Both the position numbers and the translations under genes were made by a program. Below are positions 389 to 30,961 of a stretch of DNA of 48,871 bases, in pieces. The notes under the pieces are model-generated. The model saw only the letters and a list, made by a program, of their open reading frames with translations, did not search any database and was not told the DNA's origin. The DNA is taken from positions 1 to 48,871 of IMG/VR virus record IMGVR_UViG_3300033146_001132; one strand, written 5' to 3'. The stretch's first letter is position 1; each line of letters starts with the position of its first letter. Source of the DNA: a virus.

Positions 389-1180
389 ATGAGAGATAAA
401 AAATATTATATCGATAAAGATGAATTGTGGTCTGAGATTGAATTGTATTATGAAAAGGATCAACAGAGTATTGACGCGGGTAATGGCTCAATACAAATGT
501 CTAATAAACTTGGAAGTATGCTGATCAGTGTGGCTGACAAGTTGATGACTAGTCGATCCTTCTCAGGGTACCCATATAAAGACCAGATGATTGGTGATGC
601 GGTGTTACGCATGGTGAAAACCATTAATGAGAAAAAGTTTCAGTTGTATGGACAGGTTAAAGCACCCTCTATCGAGGAACGCGAATTTATGATTAATCTT
701 ACCATTTTGGATGATATTCCACATGGATGCTTTGTGGCTCGCGGGGTTGGGGTGGATGATGCTGAATTTTATATTCTAATGGAGCCGATTCAGGGTAGAT
801 TTTTTAAAGATAGTAGGGGTAACCTGACACAGGCATACTCACGGGGCGAGCGGGTTAAGGTGAAGACAGAACGGTGTAACACAGGAACACACATTAATTG
901 TTTTGTGGAATCAGGCAGGAAGAAGCAGGGGGTTCCAGTATGTGAAGGAACTGGTGTGTTTACTGATGATGGGGAACCCGTAATGCAACGAAATAATGCG
1001 TTTGGGTATTTGTCCCTCATCGCTACACGTGAGGCTATCACCCGAATTAAGAAGGAAGGTCGTCAATATGAAGCGGTCAAAGAATATCAATGTGTCGAGT
1101 TCTGTAAATTTATGAGCGAAAATCCAGAAATGGCCAGTCAGCGAATAGAGGACGACACGTATTCTTATTTTAAAGAATAG
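389..1180 (+). CDS. 55: late-transcription sigma factor, gp55-like, with a large internal insertion
   Basis: Predicted sigma factor that directs host RNA polymerase to TATAAATA-type late promoters, many of which lie in this window. Residues 6-83 match the N-terminal half of T4 gp55 (a DELWSEIELYYE helix, then KLMTSRSFSGY and QMIGDAVLRMVK, as in the T4 LSKRFNFSGY and EMIADGIEASIK segments). Residues 202-232 match the second half (NNAFGYLSLIATREAITRI followed by KKE). In T4 these halves are only a few residues apart. Here about 110 residues (roughly 86-200, with Cys at 114, 163, 171 and 185) separate them. No intein end motifs are visible. The tail (DDTYSYFKE) is acidic/aromatic and might bind the sliding clamp as the T4 gp55 tail does, but it is not a clear match. 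The ATG follows its promoter directly. Confidence 0.85.
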   Translation: MRDKKYYIDKDELWSEIELYYEKDQQSIDAGNGSIQMSNKLGSMLISVADKLMTSRSFSGYPYKDQMIGDAVLRMVKTINEKKFQLYGQVKAPSIEEREFMINLTILDDIPHGCFVARGVGVDDAEFYILMEPIQGRFFKDSRGNLTQAYSRGERVKVKTERCNTGTHINCFVESGRKKQGVPVCEGTGVFTDDGEPVMQRNNAFGYLSLIATREAITRIKKEGRQYEAVKEYQCVEFCKFMSENPEMASQRIEDDTYSYFKE

Positions 1181-1214: not shown

Positions 1215-2285
1215 ATGAACAATCTACAATTACGGGGAACCCGACTGGGGATCATCGGGGATCTTCATCTGGGAAAACACAACACGGAGCGGTGGGACGA
1301 CACCTACACCAAACTCGGAGAGTGGATCATCACCACGATGCAATCGGAGGGGATTAAGGATATTATGTTTTTGGGTGATGTGTTCGATGGACATAAGGAA
1401 AAGACGAATGAAAAAGCAATCACCTTCAAAATGATGTCATTCATCTCAAATTATTTCACTCGATTTGCCGAAGAATTCAATGTGATAATTTACAGTGGCA
1501 ATCACTGTTGTTACTATAAGGACAGATGTGATGTGTCTGGATTGGAAATGTTGAAGGGTCGACCAAATATTCAAATCATCGAAGAAACTACAAATTTTTC
1601 AGTGGGTGATAAGAATTACAAGATCGTCCCGTGGGCGTGTAATATTGATGATGGAGGTCGGGTGGACGGACTGTTTGGTCATTTTGATATTAAGACATTT
1701 CAAATGAATGCCGCTAAAAAATCCGAAAGTGGATTTACTACCACGCAACTTTTCACATATTGTGATCGGGTTTATACGGGACACTATCATAACCGACAGT
1801 TGCGTGAGTATTCAAAGGGAACTAAGAGCATATATTACGTAGGCACCCCCCTTCAATTGAGCTGGAGCGAGGCTGGGAAAGAAAGCGTAATCAGTGTGGT
1901 CGACTTGGAAACCAACACAATGACCGATGAATTCACCAATAACTTTTCCCCCGAATTCGTTAAAGTGACGACGTCAACTCTGATCGAATCGCCAGAGGAA
2001 TATAAAAATAACATTCTGGAAGTAATTTGGGACGTTGAACATAACGAGGAGAATACTATGAAGGTTAGTAATATTCTTGACCGAGGTGGCAACTTTGCGG
2101 TGAGAAACAATTTTTCGTTCAAACAAGAAACGGTGATCGGTGAACTGACGGGGCTTAACTCCGCAGTAGACCCACGGGAAATATTGTCAGTGTATATCAG
2201 CGCTATTGAGGGTATCTCGGATAAAGATAGGAATCAATTGGACACGCTCGGAAACCACTACTTACAATTAACTGGGATATGTTAG
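1215..2285 (+). CDS. 47: recombination endonuclease subunit, gp47/SbcD/Mre11-like
   Basis: Metallophosphoesterase nuclease subunit. In T4, gp47 acts with the ATPase gp46 to resect double-strand breaks for recombination-dependent replication. Metal-site motifs appear in order: GDLHLG (D16, H18), GDVFD (D55), GNH (95-97), a GHFD segment and GHYH (189-192). After these comes a YYVGTPLQLSW segment equivalent to T4 YIGTPWTLT, and a C-terminal ISDKDRNQL region like T4 gp47. The residue after GNH is Cys98 instead of the usual Asp/Glu. Length (356 aa) fits gp47 (339 aa). The gp46 partner is not in the window. The next gene overlaps its last 7 bases. Confidence 0.88.
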   Translation: MNNLQLRGTRLGIIGDLHLGKHNTERWDDTYTKLGEWIITTMQSEGIKDIMFLGDVFDGHKEKTNEKAITFKMMSFISNYFTRFAEEFNVIIYSGNHCCYYKDRCDVSGLEMLKGRPNIQIIEETTNFSVGDKNYKIVPWACNIDDGGRVDGLFGHFDIKTFQMNAAKKSESGFTTTQLFTYCDRVYTGHYHNRQLREYSKGTKSIYYVGTPLQLSWSEAGKESVISVVDLETNTMTDEFTNNFSPEFVKVTTSTLIESPEEYKNNILEVIWDVEHNEENTMKVSNILDRGGNFAVRNNFSFKQETVIGELTGLNSAVDPREILSVYISAIEGISDKDRNQLDTLGNHYLQLTGIC

Positions 2286-3484
2286 AGTTCGATAAACATT
2301 CATACCGATCCCCTCAAGGGGGGATGCATCATATGATAATGCAACCAGCTGGGTTCTCCGATGGTTGCACTATGTGGAGATTTGATTGGATTCGGACTGC
2401 GCTAGTTTCACAGAAAAAGGCTTATATTGAAATGTCAACACAGCCACCACATGTGTTCTTTCCAGATCCGAAAAACGCGGGATCTGCTATAGTTAACCCA
2501 CTACTAGTCAATACGAACGCGGTAGTCACCCAACGCCCCACCAGCGACTACACTGTAGACCAGATGAAGCGATATGCATCGGTGCAGAAGAATATGATTG
2601 AGCAGGGTAACCAGCCATTTAGATGTGTGTTTGATGTAGATGACATAACCCACGGGGATCACATCTCTAAGTTTAATATGGCTCGCGATGCGTATGAGGA
2701 TAATTCAAAATTCAAAATCTTTAAAGAGGCGATGAACTATGTCGATGAGCTACATGTGTGTTCCCCAAGTATGCGTGATTTCTATGCTGATGAATTTAAC
2801 TCCAATAAAGTAACTTTCCGTCCCAACTTAATGCCCAATCACCTTTTTGGCCGTTTTTTCGATATGAATAAGATCGAAAAACGATTCCATGATAATCAAC
2901 ACAAACCACGTGTGATGTGGGCTGGTAGTTGGTCACACATCGATGTCAGGGGTCAGACTGATCATGATGATTTTGATGATTTTGAGCAATTGGTAATTAC
3001 TACTATTGATGAGTATCAGTGGATTTTTTATGGAGGGTATCCGATTTGGGCAAAATCCTATATCGATTCGGGCAAAATTGAATATTATAAATGGACTGGT
3101 ATTTATGAATTTCCACAGAAATTCGATGATATAGGCGCTAACGTTGTTTTCGCCCCATTACATGACAATGTGTTTAACCGATGTAAAAGTAATATAAAAC
3201 TGACGGAAGCTGGTATATTTGGGGTGGTTGGTATTTTTCAGGATATGGATCCATACGTCGAAGCTCCGCTACGATTTAACACTTCCGATGAATTTCATGA
3301 CCACCTGAAAGCGGTAATGGGTGATTGGGATGTATATCGCCGTGTCGTGTTACACATGCACAAGATCGCAGAGGAATATCTGATGAACAATAATATTGAA
3401 TTATTACAAGCGTGCTATTTCACCGAAATCGGTAGTATTGATCGTCAGCTGGTATCTCCAAAATTAGTAGAAATTAATGCTTGA
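2279..3484 (+). CDS. glycosyltransferase, GT-B fold type
   Basis: Resembles GT1/GT4-type glycosyltransferases. The C-terminal half has PRVMWAGSWSH (about 216-226), a YQWIFYGGYP strand, and KSNIKLTEAGIFGV (about 302-315), which matches the nucleotide-sugar-binding (R/K)SNIKxxEAGxxG pattern. The N-terminal half (acceptor domain) has no specific match. The substrate is unknown: modified DNA bases, a virion protein or a host surface glycan are all possible. It overlaps gp47 by 7 bases, so it is co-transcribed with replication genes and is probably early. Two sugar-nucleotide genes at 23764-25291 could supply a donor. Confidence 0.65.
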   Translation: MLEFDKHSYRSPQGGMHHMIMQPAGFSDGCTMWRFDWIRTALVSQKKAYIEMSTQPPHVFFPDPKNAGSAIVNPLLVNTNAVVTQRPTSDYTVDQMKRYASVQKNMIEQGNQPFRCVFDVDDITHGDHISKFNMARDAYEDNSKFKIFKEAMNYVDELHVCSPSMRDFYADEFNSNKVTFRPNLMPNHLFGRFFDMNKIEKRFHDNQHKPRVMWAGSWSHIDVRGQTDHDDFDDFEQLVITTIDEYQWIFYGGYPIWAKSYIDSGKIEYYKWTGIYEFPQKFDDIGANVVFAPLHDNVFNRCKSNIKLTEAGIFGVVGIFQDMDPYVEAPLRFNTSDEFHDHLKAVMGDWDVYRRVVLHMHKIAEEYLMNNNIELLQACYFTEIGSIDRQLVSPKLVEINA

Positions 3485-6192: not shown

Positions 6193-6564
6193 ATGAATGT
6201 TAAAGTATTTATGACTAAGAATTTGGGTTGGGTTGCATCTGAAGTAACAGAAGAACTCGACAATGGGTGGATGGTTAAGAACCCACGCTACATCCAAGCA
6301 TTTGCGGAGCCATCAACAAAAGAGGGCGAAACCTCAAATTTGAGCCTCCACCTCTCACCAGTGCTTTATTTGGAACTTCTCACCGAAGGACGTGATCTTG
6401 AGATCTTGTTTGATAAGTCCGATTACACGGATTACACCGAACAATTCAACCCAACCATTATTGAGATGTATACTAAAGTCGAATCCCGCGTAATGAAAGC
6501 TCGTGGTGATGAGCCAGAAGATAATGACTCAGAGCCAGACAACGTGGTGAAGCTCGGCGAATAA
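6193..6564 (+). CDS. small Sm/Hfq-like phage protein, function unknown
   Basis: A 123-residue protein. The first 40 residues (VKVFMTKNLGWVASEVTEEL followed by DNGWMVKNPRYIQ) have the two-strand 'regulate/modify ... NP.x.I' layout of small Sm-like phage proteins that usually begin 'VKVIKLITGEEVI'. The C-terminus is acidic and probably disordered (EPEDNDSEPDN). ATG 6193 is preferred to an upstream TTG at 6160, because that TTG is the first half of a TTGACA box and 6193 has the late-type octamer. It lies between gp43 and uvsX and ends just before a terminator. Confidence 0.5.
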   Translation: MNVKVFMTKNLGWVASEVTEELDNGWMVKNPRYIQAFAEPSTKEGETSNLSLHLSPVLYLELLTEGRDLEILFDKSDYTDYTEQFNPTIIEMYTKVESRVMKARGDEPEDNDSEPDNVVKLGE

Positions 6565-6586: not shown

Positions 6587-6620
6587 AAAGCCTCACTGAT
6601 TAATTTCAGTGAGGCTTTTC
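6587..6620 (+). terminator. Rho-independent terminator after the gp43 operon
   Basis: AAAGCCTCACTGA (6587-6599) pairs with TCAGTGAGGCTTT (6606-6618), with a 6-base loop and T-rich tail. Confidence 0.85.
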
Positions 6621-6648: not shown

Positions 6649-6709
6649 AATTACAATTACAAATGCACAATCACCTTGGTCGTGCAACCAAAATTAATTA
6701 TATATAAAT

Positions 6710-7888
6710 ATGGCAACTAAAAAGAAAGCACCAGTAAAGAAGAAAAGTTTATTCGATAAGATCAAAGGGGTCGATACCCTGAAGAATACATCACGATTAA
6801 GTGATAGTAAGTTTTTCGTTGATGAGTTTTATGATACACATATTCCAGCCCTTAATATCGCCCTCTCGGGTCGTCTGGATGGCGGATTTAGCCGTGGGAG
6901 CACCGTCATCGCAGGTGACTCAAAGACGTTCAAATCAATGTTCATGCTCGTCATGGCAAAGGCATTCATGGACGAATGCACTGCACGAGGGGAAGAAAGT
7001 ATTTTCGTGTATTACGACGTCGAATTCGGCACTAATGCTGGCTCAATTGAATCCATCGGGATCGATGCAGATATGGTGATGCATAAACCAGTCACCACAG
7101 TGGAGCAATTAAAAATTGATATGGTTCAATTACTAGAAGAAGTTGATGAGAAGGATAATGTGTTTATCGGAATTGACTCACTGGGTGCTATTGCTTCAAA
7201 GAAAGAACTTGAAGATGCTATTGCGGGTAAATCAGTTGGTGATATGAGTCGAGCCAAGGCCATTAAGAGTTTTTGGCGGACTATTAACCCAGCACTTAAT
7301 GTGAAGCGTATCCCCATGGTTGCCATCGGTCAGACATATGATACGCAGGAAATGTATGCTAAAGCTGTTATTGGTGGTGGTAAAGGTATGGTGTATTTCC
7401 CAAATAACATCTGGATGATTACCAAAACCGTAATCAAAAACAAGACAACCAAAGAAGTTGAGGGTAACTTCTTCAATGTCACCGTCTATAAAGGACGTCT
7501 CACCAAAGAGGGAGCTAAATTCCCAATTGAGATCACTCACGGTGCTGGAATCGACAAGTATTCATCCTTACTCGATATTGCACTCAAACTCGGCTATGCA
7601 ACCAAGCCCAAAATTGGATGGTTTACACGTGAAGGTCTTGGACGTAATGTTCGTAGAGCAGATACATCAACCGCTGAATTCTGGGATCCAGTGTTGGCAA
7701 ATCCAGACTTTAAAAAGGACATCAAAGATATGTTCACCCTTGGATCACTACGGGAAATGGAGCTTAAACAGGTCTCCGTGTATGAAGAAGGTGAGTTGGA
7801 GGAGGAGAAATCCACCGTGAGGGAATATAAAATGTCCAAGAAAACACAGGTGATCGAGGAAGATAACTCGTTTGATATCAACGAGTAA
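6710..7888 (+). CDS. uvsX: RecA-family recombinase UvsX
   Basis: Strand-exchange ATPase for recombination-dependent replication and repair. SKFF at about 36-39 and IPALNIALSG (about 46-55) align with T4 UvsX (IPMMNIALSG). The Walker A is AGDSKTFKS (68-76), close to T4 AGPSKSFKS. FYDSEFG of T4 is here YYDVEFG. FIGIDSLGAIASKKE is Walker B plus downstream helix. KPKIGWFTRE near the C-terminus matches T4 KPKNGWYARE. At 392 aa it matches T4 UvsX (391). The tail is acidic. It is followed by its own terminator, so it is probably monocistronic. Confidence 0.95.
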   Translation: MATKKKAPVKKKSLFDKIKGVDTLKNTSRLSDSKFFVDEFYDTHIPALNIALSGRLDGGFSRGSTVIAGDSKTFKSMFMLVMAKAFMDECTARGEESIFVYYDVEFGTNAGSIESIGIDADMVMHKPVTTVEQLKIDMVQLLEEVDEKDNVFIGIDSLGAIASKKELEDAIAGKSVGDMSRAKAIKSFWRTINPALNVKRIPMVAIGQTYDTQEMYAKAVIGGGKGMVYFPNNIWMITKTVIKNKTTKEVEGNFFNVTVYKGRLTKEGAKFPIEITHGAGIDKYSSLLDIALKLGYATKPKIGWFTREGLGRNVRRADTSTAEFWDPVLANPDFKKDIKDMFTLGSLREMELKQVSVYEEGELEEEKSTVREYKMSKKTQVIEEDNSFDINE

Positions 7889-9453: not shown

Positions 9454-9774
9454 ATGAATTTATTTGACCAACAGGATTCGGAACGAAACTCGTATGAAAC
9501 ATACTGCGATGTGGAGGATAATAAAAATTTCGCAAACATTATCACGCTAGTATCATTACTAAACAAGAAATTTTATAGCCCAGTATCGTTTGTCACCGAA
9601 TACGTCGAAAATTTCAAACTACAACACTTAGTGACAACTACAACAGGATACTCCAAATTTGGATTTATTGTGTTATTCATGCGAAATTTTCCAACAGTGG
9701 CAAAATCACGAAAACTAAAACGAATTATAGATGAAAAAAATGAGAGGGATGCTAAGGACGCTAAGGACGCTTGA
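9454..9774 (+). CDS. 106-aa protein, positional candidate for gp33
   Basis: No family is recognised from sequence. It is 106 residues, helical in appearance, with a lysine/aspartate-rich end (AKDAKDA). In T4 the late-transcription coactivator gene 33 (112 aa) lies next to 59 and 32. This gene has the same size and position relative to the gp59 candidate and gp32. Against this, it lacks the C-terminal LDFLL-type clamp-binding motif of T4 gp33. It overlaps the next gene by 44 bases, and a tandem GCTAAGGAC repeat is read in both frames. Confidence 0.5.
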   Translation: MNLFDQQDSERNSYETYCDVEDNKNFANIITLVSLLNKKFYSPVSFVTEYVENFKLQHLVTTTTGYSKFGFIVLFMRNFPTVAKSRKLKRIIDEKNERDAKDAKDA

Positions 9775-10447
9775 GGTGACGGAAGACATCAAGCGGGTAT
9801 ATAATGACCATCTAATGACTACGAGGCTTTTCAGGGGCAACCCAGCGAGACCACGAAAGGATTTTAGTGGATTTGATGAGGATGTGCGCCTCCGCTACTA
9901 TCGAAATATGGCTCGCTGGTTTCAGCGCCACCCAGAGATTAACCGTAAATTATACTTCGAAGCCACCTTGTTTTTTCACAAAGATGATGAAATAATTCAC
10001 ATCAAGGAGTATTGTAAATCGAGCGCGTTGAAAAATTATACAGAATATTGTAAAATTATCAGTGGGCTTGACCTCGACAACATTAAGTCCATACATCGAT
10101 GTGCTGACAGCTTCAAATTTATCCGTGATTTTTGTATTGATAATAATATACCAGATCTCCGATCATATATGTCGCATGCCCCGTCTAGTGGCAATGTCCC
10201 CTCGTTTCTGAATCACATTAAAAACAATTCCATTGACATATATCCATTGTTTGCTATAATTGGAGCGATGGAAGTAATGGTTGCCGCACAGAAAGATCAC
10301 GAAACATGGGCACGATGCGTTGATCCAGAACTTAATCATTATTTTTTTCTCAAACGTTTCGAGACCAGCACTAGATACAAGAGTGTGTGTTACGATGCAG
10401 TGGAAATTGTGAATAACGCCATCAAAAATAATATTGATAATAGTTGA
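9731..10447 (+). CDS. probable helicase-loading protein, gp59-like by synteny
   Basis: 238 residues, basic and rich in aromatic residues, all-helical in appearance, with several Cys. T4 gp59 (217 aa) loads gp41 helicase onto gp32-coated DNA, and its gene lies beside gene 32. Here the gene sits between gp41 and gp32. Motif-level similarity is weak, so the call rests on position, size and composition. The start is uncertain: ATG 9731 overlaps the upstream gene, and 9740 and 9749 are alternatives. It ends with TGA just after the ATAGTTGACA of the gp32 promoter begins. Confidence 0.45.
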   Translation: MKKMRGMLRTLRTLEVTEDIKRVYNDHLMTTRLFRGNPARPRKDFSGFDEDVRLRYYRNMARWFQRHPEINRKLYFEATLFFHKDDEIIHIKEYCKSSALKNYTEYCKIISGLDLDNIKSIHRCADSFKFIRDFCIDNNIPDLRSYMSHAPSSGNVPSFLNHIKNNSIDIYPLFAIIGAMEVMVAAQKDHETWARCVDPELNHYFFLKRFETSTRYKSVCYDAVEIVNNAIKNNIDNS

Positions 10448-10472
10448 CAGGGGTATTCTGCCGTGCTAATAT
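10444..10472 (+). promoter_or_regulatory. early promoter of the gp32-like gene
   Basis: TTGACA (10444-10449), exactly 17 bases, TAATAT (10467-10472) with a TGC extended -10. The sequence GTGCTAATATT recurs at the clamp-loader promoter (37011). Confidence 0.8.
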
Positions 10473-10480
10473 TAATCCAC

Positions 10481-10499
10481 GGTCGGTAACAGACCGACC
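10481..10499 (+). promoter_or_regulatory. hairpin at the 5' end of the gp32 leader
   Basis: GGTCGGT (10481-10487) and ACCGACC (10493-10499) form a 7-bp stem with loop AACAG, close to the predicted mRNA 5' end. An unstructured A/C-rich stretch (AACACC repeated) follows up to the start. T4 gp32 represses its own translation through a 5' pseudoknot plus unstructured leader, and this has a comparable layout. Confidence 0.5.
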
Positions 10500-10515
10500 A
10501 ACACCAACACCAAAA

Positions 10516-10523
10516 TATAAATA
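10516..10523 (+). promoter_or_regulatory. late promoter TATAAATA of the gp32-like gene
   Basis: Exact T4 late consensus ending five bases before ATG 10529. Transcripts from here would start at the AUG and lack the upstream hairpin. Confidence 0.65.
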
Positions 10524-10528
10524 TAATT

Positions 10529-11524
10529 ATGAGTAATGAACTAGAAGACCTCTTCGCAGAGGCAGAGCAAGCAACGCAGAAACAGGAGGAAAAGATTTCC
10601 ACCACATATAAACGTGACGACCGACTTATGGATTGTAGTGGGACGCGAACTATTTACTTCCGCGTATTCCCTGACCTAAAAGGTGATCCAATGACATACC
10701 TTCCGTATAAGAACTATGCATTCAAAAGCTGCGCTACGGGAAAGATGGTATATGCAGGGACGTCACCTTTATTTTTCGGCGAGACCGATTTTCTAGGAGA
10801 ACGCCAAAAAGAGCTTTGGAACACTGATCCCGAGAAAGCCAAGGTGTTATTTGCAACCGAAAAACGACTGGTAAATGTATTTATCATCAAGGATACACTT
10901 GATGATTCAAATGACCAGACATTCAAAGTATGGAACTACACCGCAAAACCAACCGATCCGAAACGCCCAAGAGCGGGATCTCCGATGATGAAGTGTCTCG
11001 ATAAGCTTCTTAATGATCCAGACGTCCCAGTATCACAAAAAGATATCTATAATCTAGGGCCAGATGGAATCACCTTCAAAATGATTATCAAGCAACCCGA
11101 GAAAAAAGGCGACTTTGTTGACGTGGAGGTAGTTTCCTTTAATGCAGGGACAGCCGTTCAGGGGTTTGGCGGGTTCCCCGCCGACAAACTCCTTGATATC
11201 TACCGCCAAAAATCGGCAGATATCTCTGATATGATTGAACCATGTAAAACACAGGCTGAACTTGAGGTGATTTATAAGACACATATCTTGTGTGTGACCA
11301 ATAAGTCGACCGAGGCTACCCAAAATAGCTATTTTGGTGATGATGAAGATGATGATGAAGACAATTCCATCCAGCTCGATTTGGGTGACACTAAGAATCG
11401 GTCATCAGGCGCACCATTCAAAGAAGATAAGGGTATCCCGAAGGATCCGCTCGCTGGGTCACCATCCGACACCCAGTCGGAAGATGACAAACTTGCCAAA
11501 TTACTCGAAACTCTCAGCGACTAA
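10529..11524 (+). CDS. 32: single-stranded DNA-binding protein, gp32-like
   Basis: Coats single-stranded DNA and organises the replication and recombination machinery. IYFRVFPDLKGDP (about 41-53) and VNVFIIKDTLDD (about 114-125) correspond to the T4 gp32 core segments IRFLPS and ANILVVKDP. The C-terminus has a very acidic run (about 268-280) and ends EDDKLAKLLETLSD, like the acidic protein-interaction tail of gp32. At 331 aa it is a little longer than T4 gp32 (301). The Cys/His set of the T4 zinc site is not conserved. It has an early promoter with leader plus a late leaderless promoter. Confidence 0.8.
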   Translation: MSNELEDLFAEAEQATQKQEEKISTTYKRDDRLMDCSGTRTIYFRVFPDLKGDPMTYLPYKNYAFKSCATGKMVYAGTSPLFFGETDFLGERQKELWNTDPEKAKVLFATEKRLVNVFIIKDTLDDSNDQTFKVWNYTAKPTDPKRPRAGSPMMKCLDKLLNDPDVPVSQKDIYNLGPDGITFKMIIKQPEKKGDFVDVEVVSFNAGTAVQGFGGFPADKLLDIYRQKSADISDMIEPCKTQAELEVIYKTHILCVTNKSTEATQNSYFGDDEDDDEDNSIQLDLGDTKNRSSGAPFKEDKGIPKDPLAGSPSDTQSEDDKLAKLLETLSD

Positions 11525-15359: not shown

Positions 15360-15387
15360 TTGACAAACTAAAATCAAGGCATAATAT
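15360..15387 (+). promoter_or_regulatory. promoter of the co-chaperonin gene
   Basis: TTGACA (15360-15365), 16 bases, TAATAT (15382-15387), overlapping a TATAAATA (15385-15392). ATG 15394 follows six bases after the -10 box. Confidence 0.65.
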
Positions 15388-15393
15388 AAATAT

Positions 15394-15846
15394 ATGGCAC
15401 GAAAGAAAAAGAACGACCCCAACGAACCGATCGATGAATTGATCGTTGAGATGGATACCCCAAAAATATCTAATGATGCCGCCACATCGGTTGGCGTGGA
15501 GGTTGAGGATAATATGAATTATCGAATCTCGACAGACTCATATGACATTACCATGGTGTATGATGATGTCATTTTGGGTGAGTATGTTGATAATGATAAG
15601 GACGAACAGGGATTTAAAAAGACAGAAGGTGGCTTGTTTGTTCAAGATGACGGTGGTGAAAATAAAACACTATATGACGTAATCAGAGTTCTGAAGATAG
15701 GGCGCGATGTCAGTCAGACAAAGGTCGGTGATCTTATTGTCGTGTCGAAGACTACTGGTATGCAAGTCATGGAGTTTGATGGGCGCGAGTCTGTCCTAGT
15801 GGCCGAGCGAAACGTATTTATGCAAGTTAAAAAAATCGAGGAGTAG
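15394..15846 (+). CDS. GroES/gp31-like co-chaperonin
   Basis: Predicted lid for the chaperonin encoded at 16644. After a charged 50-residue N-terminus the GroES pattern is visible: a DDVILGEYVD strand (about 55-64), mobile-loop region then KTEGGLFVQDD, DVIRVLKIGRDVSQTKVGDLI (about 95-115; compare GroES 'GEVLAVG...VKVGDIVIF'), and final DGRESVLVAERNVFMQVKK. At 150 aa it is longer than GroES (97) or gp31 (111), because of the N-terminal extension. In the same transcript as GroEL, separated only by the P-loop gene, so dedicated pairing is likely. Confidence 0.75.
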   Translation: MARKKKNDPNEPIDELIVEMDTPKISNDAATSVGVEVEDNMNYRISTDSYDITMVYDDVILGEYVDNDKDEQGFKKTEGGLFVQDDGGENKTLYDVIRVLKIGRDVSQTKVGDLIVVSKTTGMQVMEFDGRESVLVAERNVFMQVKKIEE

Positions 15847-15849
15847 TAT

Positions 15850-16644
15850 ATGATTATAGGAGTAACAGGAACAACTAAAGTAGGGAAATCCACGCTTATC
15901 GGGGATTTTATGGAAAAGTTTGATAGATATCAATTACCAGAGGGATCCTATAGGGATATCGATGGGTTGGATTTATATGAGAATGGGACGGAAGAAAGTC
16001 AGCGTCTCATACGTGATTATATGTTTAAGCAAGCAAAAGACATTTGGGCTAAACGGGATACAAATCGCCGTGTCATTCATGACCGAACGCTATTAGACAA
16101 TCTAGCATGCACTATGTATTTATTTTCGAGGGGTAAGGTATCATCCGATTTCTTTTTGGAGTCACTGGAAATCACCAAAAAAGCGATGTCATACTATCAC
16201 ATCATTTATTTCGTCCCAATTACTAAGGTGGATAAAATTAAGGTTCCATCCGATATTGATGTGGAGTTCAGAGAGTGCGTTGATCTCAATCTAAAAACCC
16301 TATATAATTCATACACAAACAGGGATTCACTATCGGATGATGTATTTCCACTTAAAAACTGCACGGCCATTGAAGAAGTTTGTGGTAGTCGCGAAATTCG
16401 TATGCAATTTGTTAGTCTCATACTTGATGAGAATGGAGATTTACATGGCGGTGATATGCCGACGGCTGATGGAACCATCAAACCGCCATTATATAGTCCA
16501 TCGGGTCAGGAAATCGGCGGAACCATTGAATTGCGTGACACGAGTGATCCGACATACACCATCGAATCCTTTGGGTTCACCCACGACGAGGTAGAAAACC
16601 CACATCTCAGCCGAGATGCAGAAAAACCAAAACTTGAAATCTAA
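15850..16644 (+). CDS. P-loop nucleotide kinase-like protein (AAA_28/NadR type)
   Basis: Walker A GVTGTTKVGKST (4-15) at the N-terminus and VIHDRTLLDNLACTMY (about 75-90), a kinase-type Asp-Arg motif. This is the pattern of AAA_28/NadR-like small-molecule kinases, so a deoxynucleotide or nucleoside kinase is plausible. The last 80 residues are a Pro/Asp-rich extension (GGDMPTADGTIKPPLYSPSG) that I do not recognise. A GAGGAG sits 6-11 bases before the ATG, one of the few ribosome-binding sites in the window. Its stop overlaps the GroEL start. Confidence 0.65.
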   Translation: MIIGVTGTTKVGKSTLIGDFMEKFDRYQLPEGSYRDIDGLDLYENGTEESQRLIRDYMFKQAKDIWAKRDTNRRVIHDRTLLDNLACTMYLFSRGKVSSDFFLESLEITKKAMSYYHIIYFVPITKVDKIKVPSDIDVEFRECVDLNLKTLYNSYTNRDSLSDDVFPLKNCTAIEEVCGSREIRMQFVSLILDENGDLHGGDMPTADGTIKPPLYSPSGQEIGGTIELRDTSDPTYTIESFGFTHDEVENPHLSRDAEKPKLEI

Positions 16645-18230
16645 TGACAACTAATGAAATGAAATACGATGAGAAGGCACGAAAGGCTTTATTGACTGGA
16701 GTGTCCAAACTCACAAACGCAGTAAAATCGACACTAGGGCCATCGGGTCGCAATGTCATCATTGAAACTAAAGGCTCGCCCATCATCACTAAAGATGGCG
16801 TAACCGTTGCCAAAAACATCAACTTAGATGACCAGTATGAAAACCTCGGAGCAACCCTCATCCGAGAAGTGTCCACGAAGACGTCAGATATGGCTGGTGA
16901 TGGGACAACCACGGCGACCGTGCTCACCGAAGCTATTTTCAGGGAGGGGCTTAAAAGCGTAACCGCAGGGGCAAACCCAATTGACGTCCAACGTGGGATT
17001 AATCGCGGCGCAAAGCGGATTGCCGAAGGTCTGACCGCCATATCGAAACAGGTAGAAACTGCGGAAGAGATTCGTCAGATCGCCACGGTGTCGTCCAATT
17101 GGGATGACGAAGTTGGCGATCTGATCACCGATGCCATCAAACGGGTTGGCCGTGACGGAACAATCACCATCCAAGAAGCAAGTTCTATGGAAACGACACT
17201 TCAAGTGGTCGAAGGAATGCAGTTCGATAAGGGGTTTTTGAGTCCTCATTTTATGACAGATGAGAAAAAAGGGGTGTGTGAATTAACGGACGCATATATT
17301 CTAATAGCCGAGATGAAAATCACCAACCTTAAAGTGCTTTTACCTGTATTGGAGAAAGTCGTCGGAAAAAACGCATCTTTACTGATTATAGCCGAAGAAG
17401 TCTCGGGTGAGGCTTTGTCGACATTGGTAGTCAATAAAGCTCGGGGCGCACTGGATGTGTGTGCCGTATCTGCACCGTCATTTGGCGATGATAAAAAAGC
17501 CATTCTCGAAGACATTGCAATACTCACGGGAGCCACTGTAGTGACGGAGCTGAATGGTGGGCTAAAATCGACTAAGTTGACGGATCTTGGGCGCATTAAT
17601 AAGGGGGTGATTACGCCCACGTCCACCACTATCGTGGAAGGTGGGGGTGATAAGAACGCAATCCTTCGACGGAAAGATGTGATCCGCACCCAAATTGATG
17701 ATGCACCGAAAAATAGATTTCTGCGGAATCGATTGGCTAAAATTTCCGATGGGGTTGGAATCGTATCTGTTGGTGGTAACACTGAATCGGAAATGCGTGA
17801 GAAGAAAGCACGAGTTGAAGATGCCCTACATGCGACTCGGTCGGCTATCGAGGAGGGTATTTTGACGGGCGGTGGCTCGGCATTCATCCACGCGCTAGAA
17901 TGGTGCTCCGAGTATGGGACACAGATGATGCGGGACGATGAGCGACGTGGTATGGAGATTGTTGCGGATGCAATCACGGCACCACTAAAACAGATGGTTA
18001 CAAACTCGGGTATCTCTGGTGACGTCGTAGCGAGAGATATACAAAACTACGGTAGTATCACCTATGGATATGACGTTGCATCTAAAAAATACGGGGACAT
18101 GTTCGAAATGGGTATTATTGATCCCACTAAGGTAGCTCGTTCAGCACTACTCCACGCATCATCTATAGCTGGGTTGTTATTGACGACGGAATGCCTAATC
18201 ATCAGAAATGACGACGAAGAAGTTGACTAG
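16644..18230 (+). CDS. groL: GroEL-type group I chaperonin
   Basis: ATP-driven protein-folding chamber. The equatorial and intermediate domains are well conserved: KSTLGPSGRNVI, TKDGVTVAKNI, AGDGTTTATVL (nucleotide-site D86), KKARVEDALHATR (catalytic-type D393), GILTGGGSAF and DPTKVARSALLHASSIAGLL. At 528 aa it is slightly shorter than E. coli GroEL (548), because the C-terminal Gly-Gly-Met tail is replaced by a short acidic end (RNDDEEVD). The apical segment is recognisable but more divergent (ITNLKVLLPVLEKVVG, LLIIAEEVSGEALSTLVVNK). Its start overlaps the preceding stop. With the GroES-like gene it forms a complete phage chaperonin system, probably for virion proteins. Confidence 0.97.
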   Translation: MTTNEMKYDEKARKALLTGVSKLTNAVKSTLGPSGRNVIIETKGSPIITKDGVTVAKNINLDDQYENLGATLIREVSTKTSDMAGDGTTTATVLTEAIFREGLKSVTAGANPIDVQRGINRGAKRIAEGLTAISKQVETAEEIRQIATVSSNWDDEVGDLITDAIKRVGRDGTITIQEASSMETTLQVVEGMQFDKGFLSPHFMTDEKKGVCELTDAYILIAEMKITNLKVLLPVLEKVVGKNASLLIIAEEVSGEALSTLVVNKARGALDVCAVSAPSFGDDKKAILEDIAILTGATVVTELNGGLKSTKLTDLGRINKGVITPTSTTIVEGGGDKNAILRRKDVIRTQIDDAPKNRFLRNRLAKISDGVGIVSVGGNTESEMREKKARVEDALHATRSAIEEGILTGGGSAFIHALEWCSEYGTQMMRDDERRGMEIVADAITAPLKQMVTNSGISGDVVARDIQNYGSITYGYDVASKKYGDMFEMGIIDPTKVARSALLHASSIAGLLLTTECLIIRNDDEEVD

Positions 18231-26032: not shown

Positions 26033-26040
26033 TATAAATA
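26033..26040 (+). promoter_or_regulatory. late promoter TATAAATA
   Basis: Exact consensus ending five bases before ATG 26046. Confidence 0.7.
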
Positions 26041-26045
26041 AAGCT

Positions 26046-26747
26046 ATGAGTGTATTAGATGACGTTGATAATTTCGAAGACGTAGTATCGTGTGGGTATA
26101 GGTCGCCAATAACGTCAACGTCGTTATTGGTGTGTGTGGATAGCGCCTCGGGTGAATCAAGAGTCGCACTCCAGCCGATAATATACACAATTGAACTCAT
26201 AGATGATATTATGTTTCCGTGTGCGTGTATGACATATATGCACGACGTTGGTTGGGATTCGACACAGTATAAGACATTCAACTGGGAAGTGGCAAAAGGT
26301 CAGGTATTTGAGATAGAAAGCCATCAAGAACTCCACCATATTACTAATACTAACGTTATGCCAGATGCCACCGCACGCATCACCGTCATGCGGGATACTG
26401 GGGTGTATAGAATGTTGTCCGAATTGGGTGATGAATCCACTACGGTCGGGTATACATGGGGTGCTAATTTCCATCGACTATCAGAGGACACTATACCACC
26501 ACATGCCCATAAGTATGTCGATTACTTCCGAACTATCAGAAATAGGCATGGTGATAAAAATGATGGTGGTAGGACAATCCACCCAAATGAGCATGATAAA
26601 GATATCGAGGGTAGGCATAAGAAAACTGACCCTTTTGACATAAATAACTCAGATCCGTCTATACCGAAAGCGACACCTTTCATGGTAATGCAACCGTGGT
26701 ATGCATTAATCCCTATAATAAAAATAAGAAGTAATGACAAATATTAA
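26046..26747 (+). CDS. divergent tail-collar paralogue with HxH motif
   Basis: 233 residues. The N-terminal half no longer shows the canonical GW..CDG collar signature. The second half keeps IPPHAHKYVDYFRTIRNRHG, a His/Asp-rich stretch and an end (ATPFMVMQPWYALIPIIKI) equivalent to those of the neighbours at 25296 and 26734. It is probably a fibre or adhesin tip protein that diverged after duplication. Overlaps the next gene by 14 bases. Confidence 0.65.
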   Translation: MSVLDDVDNFEDVVSCGYRSPITSTSLLVCVDSASGESRVALQPIIYTIELIDDIMFPCACMTYMHDVGWDSTQYKTFNWEVAKGQVFEIESHQELHHITNTNVMPDATARITVMRDTGVYRMLSELGDESTTVGYTWGANFHRLSEDTIPPHAHKYVDYFRTIRNRHGDKNDGGRTIHPNEHDKDIEGRHKKTDPFDINNSDPSIPKATPFMVMQPWYALIPIIKIRSNDKY

Positions 26748-28375: not shown

Positions 28376-30961
28376 GTGAACACCCGAAATAAAGCAAAAC
28401 TACCGATAGTCCCCAATGATGATTCGTTTGGCGTGTTCGACGCATATTTGGACATGTTTGATGGGTCAATCCCGCCAAGTGAACTGATAAACGTTTTTGA
28501 TGAGAGTGAGGGGCTTAAGTATGATTTATATAAAGAGACTGATAGATTTATCAGTGATAGTCTTTTTATCAGCGAGGCTGGTGCTATAGGGGATACCACT
28601 ACAATTGGAATCGAAAAGACATTCGAAATTGGCAGTAATAACCTCGAATTATTCGAGACCGATACGACCGAAAATTATTCGATACCCATCGAAGATACTA
28701 ATTTAATATCGATTGGAGCTACGGCTGGGACCACACTAGAGGATTCTGACGTCGTATGGCAGATAGTGGATGATAATATCGAAGGTGCGTGGCTAAAACG
28801 CGGCTCGGGTGTTATTATGAACGACACAGCTCGATTCAATCTGTGGAACGGGTATAGTGAATTCAGATTTCCATACCCAAACCGAGGACTTAGTGGGTAT
28901 GGTCTCGAGTGGACGGGAAAGGGGGTTGATGATGTGACTGAGGTTGGGTATATCAGTCATGACGACCAAATTAACCAACATTTAGTGGAGAATGCATACT
29001 GGGCAGATGAAACAGAACTCTCGGCATGTGAAAGTATATCCCTATACAGAACTACACTCATTGACGACGGGGCGTTTCCCCATAAAAACTCAACAATGGC
29101 CGATAACATCCTGATGAAAGCACAGCGGGATGATACAGATATTTCGGGCGAATCTGCTTGGTTGTTTGATTTTGATAATACCGAGTTACCAATCGCGTGT
29201 GGCGAGAATGATATATATTATCCGTTATTTAGGAATGACAGTAACGGTGTCCCCGACTTCCCGTTTACCATAACCGATGACCAGTGTGAAAATAAAAACT
29301 TAGTTGATATAAATATGTCAGATAGCATGTGCGGGGCGATTGGTGGAGTGACGATGGACACGTCAGACATCATACTCAGAGTCAACAAACACGGCGATGT
29401 GGCCACGGAGGGGGCATGGTTGCGCTCAGTAGAGGTAGATACTGCAGATGTATTCGGAATCACCCCATACGTTGTAGAGGGGTTACCTATGAGCACGGGA
29501 ATAAACGTCGTAGCTCCAGCGGGTAAACACACGCCATTTGTGTGGATGTTTGAGGATACACCCGCCACTGAAGTTATTAATGGGTATGATCATGATGACA
29601 ACTGCGAATATCACAATATTTCTAATTTTTCGTCAGTTATTAACCCAGAGCCAACGAAAGACACTGTTGGGTGGTCACAATGTGATTGCCGCGCCGTATT
29701 CTACTCCCCAGCGGGTAATCCAAAGGAGTCGTTCGAGACTTACCGTGATTACTATGATATTATATATGAAGATTCCGCCACTAATGCTGATTTCTCATTT
29801 ACGAACTGGGTAGATAGTGAGGGGGACGGATTCAGGGATAGTAACAACTTCGGGGTATTCTTTTATTCAGGCGCAGAACCTGACGTTGGGTTTGGTGTGG
29901 GGGTGTGGGAGTGTCCTAATGGTAATGCGTTTAAACTGAAGAAGGGCAGAGCGTATAAATATAAGCGGATGAAGGTGCCTGATGGGGGGAGTAATGGGCC
30001 GTGTTTCGTGATCAATAATTGTAAATGTAACATTGGGTGTGGTAGTGCAATATGGACCCGAATGTTCAGGGATGATGACGGTGATTGGGTAACTGACAAT
30101 CAAATCAGTGACATGGTGATGGAGTCGGGATATCACTATAAATACATCAAACGAGCTGATGTTTCATATACACTGAGAGATAAAGATTCCGACCCCAACA
30201 TACTTGAGAACTATAAACACCGATCCACCCCAGCACCCAATTTTATAATCAACATACCACTCTATGATACCCGCCCCTTCTGGGCTGAGACGAAAAAGGT
30301 ATATGGGCTTGACGTGGGAGTTATACCCGAACCGTTCGGCGACTATTTGCTAACAACACAACCAACACCTAGTGGGATGGTTCTGTATGATGATGTATAC
30401 GTTAGGTTTAATAGGAATGGGTGTAAACCGATGCAATGGCATCAGGATATGGTATTCGAGATCAACACAGGCGAGCCGTCATCATGGCGCAAAATCGAAT
30501 TCATGGAGTTTAGTCCAATCCTATTACAGAAAATTATCGGATGTGGTGCCTGTGAGTTGGTATTCGACACTGACCCTAACATGTGTGCTATCCGACACAC
30601 AAACTGTAATTCGTATTTTACCAAAATGACCGCTACCGATAAAGCATCGGATCTGATAATAAGATCACCCGAAAACTGTAAGGGGACAACCGAGCTCATT
30701 TACACCGCACAGAATAGCTTTAGTTGGAACGAGGAAGTCACCGTTACTATTGACGCGTTGGAGTTGGACGATTTGGAGGGGTATGCAACCCCCGACAAGC
30801 CGTGGCGTAATTTACTACATGGAGGCGTCCCACAGATCAATATAGACGAACGTGGCAACACATTACTAACCGACGGGGAAATAGGGGTATTCACCCCATT
30901 CAATTTAGGAGTAACTCGAACTGTGTGTTTCGACATAACCAATATAATGAAAAATGTTTAA
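28376..30961 (+). CDS. large virion structural protein, 861 aa
   Basis: No family is recognised. Acidic, beta-rich, Cys- and Trp-rich; typical of a baseplate-peripheral or fibre protein. A weak internal repeat is visible around the motif (G/S)AWL(K/R/F) at about residues 138, 261 and 347, each followed by an acidic or Thr-rich strand region. Two later blocks share a G.G...W...F.....G pattern (about 500-530 and 555-590). Start is GTG 28376, because no ATG occurs in the first 26 codons and the late-type octamer sits at standard spacing. It overlaps the hub gene start by 8 bases. Confidence 0.7.
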   Translation: MNTRNKAKLPIVPNDDSFGVFDAYLDMFDGSIPPSELINVFDESEGLKYDLYKETDRFISDSLFISEAGAIGDTTTIGIEKTFEIGSNNLELFETDTTENYSIPIEDTNLISIGATAGTTLEDSDVVWQIVDDNIEGAWLKRGSGVIMNDTARFNLWNGYSEFRFPYPNRGLSGYGLEWTGKGVDDVTEVGYISHDDQINQHLVENAYWADETELSACESISLYRTTLIDDGAFPHKNSTMADNILMKAQRDDTDISGESAWLFDFDNTELPIACGENDIYYPLFRNDSNGVPDFPFTITDDQCENKNLVDINMSDSMCGAIGGVTMDTSDIILRVNKHGDVATEGAWLRSVEVDTADVFGITPYVVEGLPMSTGINVVAPAGKHTPFVWMFEDTPATEVINGYDHDDNCEYHNISNFSSVINPEPTKDTVGWSQCDCRAVFYSPAGNPKESFETYRDYYDIIYEDSATNADFSFTNWVDSEGDGFRDSNNFGVFFYSGAEPDVGFGVGVWECPNGNAFKLKKGRAYKYKRMKVPDGGSNGPCFVINNCKCNIGCGSAIWTRMFRDDDGDWVTDNQISDMVMESGYHYKYIKRADVSYTLRDKDSDPNILENYKHRSTPAPNFIINIPLYDTRPFWAETKKVYGLDVGVIPEPFGDYLLTTQPTPSGMVLYDDVYVRFNRNGCKPMQWHQDMVFEINTGEPSSWRKIEFMEFSPILLQKIIGCGACELVFDTDPNMCAIRHTNCNSYFTKMTATDKASDLIIRSPENCKGTTELIYTAQNSFSWNEEVTVTIDALELDDLEGYATPDKPWRNLLHGGVPQINIDERGNTLLTDGEIGVFTPFNLGVTRTVCFDITNIMKNV

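Follow-up and report, generated by a model that had tools for sequence, protein, structure and literature searches.

In an uncultured clade of T4-like phages, many start codons have TAATTA or TAAATA at a constant distance upstream and others have TTGAC near −33, a placement with which RNA from many gp55-type and sigma70-type promoters would begin on the start codon itself. We think that this clade-wide fusion of promoters to AUGs is a more solid, and more surprising, result than the switch proposed for gene 32. Gene 32 itself appears to be exempt: a sigma70-type promoter 85 nt upstream would give it a leader of ~50 nt. Our overall reading is that the clade has no regular Shine-Dalgarno sequences and carries promoters fused to its AUGs, that the gp32 leader is a T4-like operator and that the window phage possesses a late leaderless escape from it; we consider this reading about evenly poised between right and wrong. 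The window is the whole stretch of DNA that was analyzed (48,871 nt; IMG/VR virus record IMGVR_UViG_3300033146_001132).

The window phage and its gp32 gene

The window record encodes gp55-like, UvsX-like, DNA polymerase and DnaB-like helicase proteins, and we therefore assign it to a T4-like phage. Three of its genes are needed for what follows:

389..1180, + strand: gene for a gp55-like late sigma factor, the expected reader of late octamers (phrog_234, E = 4.8 × 10−17)
9731..10447, + strand: ORF of 238 aa at the position of T4 gene 59, named by position only
10529..11524, + strand: gene for a gp32-like single-strand DNA-binding protein of 331 aa (phrog_224 and Foldseek)

The gene order of T4 is 33-59-(segG)-32. 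In the window, ORF 9454-9774 occupies the position of gene 33 and has no family match, and the alignment of T4 gp59 with the ORF at 9731 (hhalign) gave E = 0.24, which is no sequence support. No gp45 was seen among the window proteins scanned, the window being a linear record and perhaps a fragment. PF08804 had no match in the window's own record and none in the controls either, and the search of the window against Rfam at gathering scores returned no family.

Relatives were recovered from viral contigs using a single UvsX sequence and profile scans. The clade comprises the window and L001/G001, L022/G002, L023/G003, L066/G004 and L072/G008. Two other loci, L069 and L070, are almost identical to L072; they were left out of the counts and L072 was kept. 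Viral contigs scanned with a single gp32 or helicase sequence gave nothing, two further scans of viral contigs returned only the clade members already known, and genome contigs scanned with gp32 and UvsX profiles contained no relative. The phage collection yielded no match by tblastn of gp32 or megablast of the first 25 kb; two Stenotrophomonas phages are among the nearest cultured UvsX matches.

The window protein matches the PHROGs family phrog_224 (E = 4.2 × 10−8) and is 33–45% identical to its counterparts in the five relatives. A Pfam gp32 match was obtained for two of the six clade members (best, 4 × 10−5), the window protein not being one of them, and the PDB sequence profile search with gp32 gave no match. 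AlphaFold gave a low-confidence model of gp32 (mean pLDDT of 55), built from six relatives; searched against the PDB with Foldseek, it gave six matches at E ≤ 0.001, all of them T4 or RB69 gp32 chains. The zinc motif of T4 gp32, Cys-X3-His-X5-Cys-X2-Cys (PMC535899), was not seen in the aligned clade proteins when the alignment was read by eye. Judging from the family match and the modeled fold, the gene at 10529 is a gp32 homologue.

Several other features of these genomes were noted. The window carries consecutive GroES-like, thymidylate kinase-like and GroEL genes (15394-18230) in a T4-like phage. Its GroEL (16644-18230) is divergent, with ~51% identity at best to plasmid-borne copies among the matches listed; these matches are mostly alphaproteobacterial and do not settle the host. 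The gp47-like (SbcD-like) gene and the DNA polymerase gene are separated by a glycosyltransferase-like gene (2279-3484), and a 13-bp terminator-like hairpin (6587-6618) lies upstream of uvsX. There is no tRNA gene in the window, and a 139.6-kb relative (L074-L076, G008) presents ~27 of them, one with an unclear anticodon, within ~22 kb.

The gp32 leader in the window and in its relatives

The initial annotation had described a near-consensus promoter, a 7-bp hairpin and an unstructured stretch upstream of gp32, and all three are present. The relevant elements are:

10233..10260, + strand: consensus sigma70-like promoter TTGACA-16-TATAAT (12/12 matches) inside the upstream ORF, an alternative start for gp32 mRNA
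10444..10472, + strand: sigma70-like promoter TTGACA-17-TAATAT with TG before the −10 element (10/12 matches)
10481..10499, + strand: hairpin of 7 bp (loop AACAG) where the leadered mRNA is predicted to begin (from sequence, shuffles and RNA fold)
10500..10528, + strand: unpaired A/C-rich tract of 29 nt that lacks G and extends to the AUG, a putative stretch for cooperative gp32 binding

In the promoter at 10444, TTGACA (10444-10449) and TAATAT (10467-10472) are separated by a 17-nt spacer and transcription is predicted to start at ~10479. The hairpin, a perfect stem with arms GGTCGGT and ACCGACC, starts 8 nt past the −10 element and is the sole element of this kind in the window. When the 56-nt stretch was shuffled 5000 times with its dinucleotides preserved, 0.34% of the shuffles contained a hairpin of at least 7 bp. 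The + strand of the window contains 51 distinct stems of at least 7 bp with loops of 3–8 nt, and the hairpin alone is therefore weak evidence. The RNA fold of 10479-10540 reaches −12.1 kcal/mol (z = −2.9), a stability equaled in 2 of 200 shuffles. In the best fold of the predicted leader, the hairpin is the only structure and everything 3′ of its stem is unpaired; no pseudoknot was predicted, by a program that does not predict pseudoknots. The tract reads AACACCAACACCAAAAUAUAAAUAUAAUU and contains one UAAA and no UUAAA repeats.

What the sequences show is the anatomy of the leader with its statistics, the tract in six genomes and, in one relative, the hairpin with compensatory change; from this we infer the RNA starts, their timing, gp32 binding, repression and escape. 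The 5′ hairpin followed by an unstructured A/C-rich tract running to the AUG would most likely constitute a T4-like translational operator: excess gp32 would nucleate at the hairpin, extend cooperatively over the tract and block the AUG. A gp55-type octamer located within the tract of the window phage would start a leaderless gp32 mRNA late in infection; without the operator, that mRNA would escape repression. We also advance, tentatively, the possible scenario that the clade dropped leaders and Shine-Dalgarno sequences by promoter fusion, that gp32 was exempted for its operator and that the late leaderless start switches off autoregulation.

The 12/12 promoter at 10233-10260 means that the promoter at 10444 is not the sole candidate start for gp32 mRNA. 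It is conceivable, and to us somewhat unlikely, that this mRNA originates mainly from 10233-10260 or beyond, with the hairpin and tract internal and the 10444 promoter minor. The full match of the 10233 promoter speaks for such an origin, but a −10-like hexamer is also found in L066, where it lies 9 nt upstream of the hairpin. The operator model itself would not fall with such an origin; only the 5′-terminal position of the hairpin would change. The 10233 promoter has an in-frame ATG (10268) 7 nt downstream, inside the ORF at the gene 59 position; it could yield a leaderless mRNA for a C-terminal fragment of that protein and also feed gp32.

We then compared the leaders across the clade. The 35 nt before the gp32 AUG were ranked by A+C content among the genes of each genome, and gp32 was placed 1/52 (window), 3/12, 1/26, 6/82, 1/8 and 1/184 (Fisher P = 2 × 10−4 over the six genomes). 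Ranked by unpaired probability in the same genome order, gp32 was placed 5, 2, 1, 15, 1 and 1 (P = 1 × 10−3), and by length of the unpaired run in the best fold 1, 1, 2, 82, 1 and 1. The small contig counts 8 genes in one ranking and 9 in another, with identical A+C ranks. The test is weak in two genomes, G003 (unpaired probability, 15/82; unpaired run in the minimum free energy fold, 82/82) and G001 (A+C, 3/12). The A/C tract is thus supported as a feature of the gp32 leaders of this clade. It overlaps the end of the ORF at the gene 59 position in L022, L023 and L001, and in L072 the leader is a run of AAAAC repeats (15880-15921). This run also encodes the end of a 120-aa ORF, and L069 differs from L072 by small changes immediately before it.

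The initial annotation had named conservation of the hairpin in relatives as a check: the hairpin recurs at the same place in one relative and is not kept clade-wide. L066 presents a 77-nt gap before gp32 with, in order, a −10 element (TATACT), 9 nt, a 6-bp stem, a 5-nt loop, a G-free tract and the AUG. MAFFT did not bring the window and L066 leaders into register, and a script matched the two stems position by position instead. Relative to the window, four of the six pairs differ on both sides, a compensatory change, and two are the same; the outermost pair of the window stem has no counterpart in L066. The loops are 5 nt and the tracts ~30 nt in both. Of 5000 shuffled L066 leaders, 0.3% had a 6-bp stem with a similar loop at the matching place. 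Promoters are weak in L066 (8/12) and in L001 (9/12), the latter showing only a 4-bp stem 8 nt past its promoter and ahead of a 59-nt tract. The L022 and L023 stems span 61–96 nt upstream of the gp32 AUG: L023 has a 9-bp stem 96–71 nt before the AUG, inside the ORF at the gene 59 position. This 25-nt element recurs in L022, where one pair is broken and another is changed on both sides, a change that may have other causes because the region is coding. In L072 we found only a long-loop pairing. Two members thus share one leader layout and the others have some structure of a different kind or at a greater distance, a pattern that is no more than suggestive.

The same hairpins could instead be 5′-terminal stabilizers against decay of the gp32 mRNA, with the tract as a low-structure landing site for ribosomes and no self-repression at all. 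The hairpin of the window and that of L066 would each lie ~2 nt inside the predicted 5′ terminus, which agrees with this idea, as does the stability of T4 gene 32 mRNA, described as above typical (PMC535899). We nevertheless regard it as unlikely, since it leaves unexplained the consistent and exceptional A/C tract of gp32, which is found even where no 5′-terminal hairpin is seen.

Late octamers and promoters at start codons

The operator reading is accompanied by a second proposal of the initial annotation, that an octamer in the tract allows a late transcript to start at the AUG:

10516..10523, + strand: TATAAATA, a late promoter octamer of the T4 type, positioned −13 to −6 from the gp32 AUG

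This octamer ends 5 nt ahead of the ATG at 10529. In T4 itself, late promoters have their octamer at −13 to −6 relative to the start of the RNA (PMC1524935; see also PMC2988020). With this spacing, an octamer at −13 to −6 from the A of the AUG would place the late RNA start on the AUG. The T4 spacing is exact and the phase is used throughout the clade, but an in-phase octamer is absent before gp32 in the five other clade leaders. It may be that TATAAATA arose before gp32 by accident, within a tract rich in A and T, and that gp32 is transcribed with its leader only. The tract is indeed A-rich, and those five leaders do without the octamer; its chance of falling at this fixed place is, however, 0.0006 given the composition of the tract itself, and six of the 52 window genes, gp32 included, carry ATAAWTA at the same phase, which makes an accident improbable in our view. 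Across the window TATAAATA occurs nine times, always on the + strand (shuffle mean, 4.3; nine or more in 3 of 100 shuffles). The gp32 octamer is likely, from its sequence and position, a real late promoter, in phase at gp32 so far only in the window phage. The sequence features reported in the initial annotation are thereby confirmed, and its dual-transcript interpretation is partly supported. It had treated the leaderless start as a feature of gp32; such starts seem widespread among these phages and not specific to gp32.

We searched the six clade contigs for the late-type motif. ATAAWTA starts at −12 before 40 of 365 genes, distributed over the contigs as 6/52 (window), 1/12, 3/26, 12/82, 0/9 and 18/184, and at any other position it was found at most three times in any one genome. 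At the clade phase it precedes 0 of 165 genes in the outgroup G007 and 0 of 51 in a 49-kb T4 late region, where the modes lie at −34 and −35 before the AUG. Of the 365 genes, 44 have the hexamer TAATTA at −11, whereas its 19 anagrams average 0.84 occurrences, and this control rejects mere A/T richness as the source of the −11 motif. Among the 172 genes of four contigs, 20 have the early-type element TTGAC with its first base at −34 or −33 (mean of 0.66 per position). Starts were taken as the first ATG of each ORF of at least 60 aa and some are wrong; such errors weaken a fixed-phase signal and do not produce one. Four further examples from the window are:

26033..26048, + strand: TATAAATA-N5-ATG, leaderless-type late promoter fused to the start codon
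35783..35798, + strand: GATAAATA-N5-ATG, leaderless-type late promoter fused to the start codon
39826..39841, + strand: TATAAATA-N5-ATG, leaderless-type late promoter fused to the start codon
18223..18259, + strand: TTGACT-16-TATAAT-N6-ATG, early-type promoter fused to the start codon

There are counterexamples. Three copies of TATAAATA in the window (6703-6712, 15385-15396 and 29308-29317) abut or overlap an ATG, and a T4-type start from them would be intragenic. At these three sites, either the true start codon is further down or the octamers are not read as late promoters.

The frequency of the late-type motif depends on gene spacing. It precedes 31 of 82 genes with a divergent neighbor, 11 of 29 with a gap of 9–30 nt and 24 of 108 with a longer gap, relative to 16 of 139 genes packed within 8 nt of the preceding gene (divergent versus packed, P = 7 × 10−6). 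This enrichment at genes that need their own promoter indicates that the motif behaves as a promoter should. The corresponding figures for TTGAC are 8/82 and 5/139 (P = 0.08).

The share of genes with an upstream Shine-Dalgarno-like sequence is 4–11% in the clade; it is 69% in the T4 region and 52% in G007, and segments of the two Stenotrophomonas phages give 50% and 46%. The lack of such sequences in the clade is not an artefact of gene calling, an explanation rejected because the same caller gives the four higher values. Among 11 other loci, ten present shares of 37–67% and one (L011) 9%. This locus of 11 genes, a distant relative by its helicase, carries the −11 motif at 2 of them and may, on these sequence features, be a further member of the clade.

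The clade combines the two marks of leaderless genomes, promoter elements at a fixed distance from the AUG and a lack of Shine-Dalgarno sequences. The simplest reading of the fixed phase is that these phages probably make leaderless early and late mRNAs. It is very unlikely that the octamer-like motif is instead a translation signal of a non-Shine-Dalgarno host and no promoter: its distance to the AUG is fixed and it also occurs at the tightly packed genes, but it matches the gp55 octamer at the exact T4 spacing, a gp55 gene is encoded, it is enriched where genes need their own promoter, and the second class has TTGAC at −33/−34, the natural reading of which is a −35 element. Leaderless starts from many promoters appear unusual among T4-like phages, and we found no description of leaderless late mRNAs in a T4-like phage in the titles and abstract openings of the open-licence literature. 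If true, fusion predicts that the host initiates well on leaderless mRNA.

Comparison with known operators and late promoters

In T4, gp32 represses its own mRNA: it nucleates on a folded element of ~28 nt and from there covers more than 40 nt of a less structured tract as far as the initiation site; the operator sequences of gene 32 diverge between T4 and RB69, and the pseudoknot may be missing in RB49 (PMC535899). The window and L066 leaders resemble these operators in that the gene encodes a gp32 homologue and a structure lies 5′ of an unstructured tract running into the initiation site (PMC535899). The likeness to T4 claimed by the initial annotation extends to this layout and stops short of the pseudoknot and the UUAAA repeats, neither of which was seen. 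Unlike T4, which has a pseudoknot, the window and L066 have a plain hairpin of 6–7 bp; there are no UUAAA repeats and no Shine-Dalgarno sequence, the tract is shorter (~30 nt in the window and L066) and, in the window, a late octamer is embedded in it. By analogy, the leader is plausibly an operator of the T4 type. Borjac-Natour and co-workers raised the question of whether the gp32 of T4 relatives lacking the pseudoknot still represses its own translation (PMC535899). The clade offers candidate operators for that question, with simple hairpins and, at the extreme, tracts of AAAAC repeats.

The late promoters of the clade are similar to the gp55-dependent late promoters of T4: they use the octamer TATAAATA (in the clade also TATAATTA-like), a gp55 homologue is encoded and conservation at −35 is not required. 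In contrast to T4, where the octamer mostly lies 34–35 nt ahead of the AUG in the region analyzed, the clade octamer is fused to it at −13 to −6 and the predicted RNA is leaderless. A partial parallel is gene e of T4, whose late transcripts, without the 5′ part of an inhibitory structure, are reported to be translated well (PMC3014915); the proposed late gp32 transcript would likewise drop a 5′ inhibitory leader structure. In gene e, however, the structure hides the ribosome-binding site and the late mRNA keeps that site (PMC3014915), whereas in our proposal gp32 would act as the repressor and the late mRNA would have no leader. If true, a late promoter phased on the start codon would be a clear case of a promoter and a translation signal merging.

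To our knowledge, the promoters of Thermus phage phiYS40 are not T4-like. Its middle and late mRNAs are leaderless according to a review (PMC3594737), as the late mRNAs of our clade are predicted to be; the parts of that review concerned with phiYS40 make no link to gp55 octamers or to gp32. Finally, the leaders of the window (10497-10502), L066 (~6310-6315) and T4 gene 32 all have ACCAAC overlapping the 3′ side of the structure or following it, possibly by chance.
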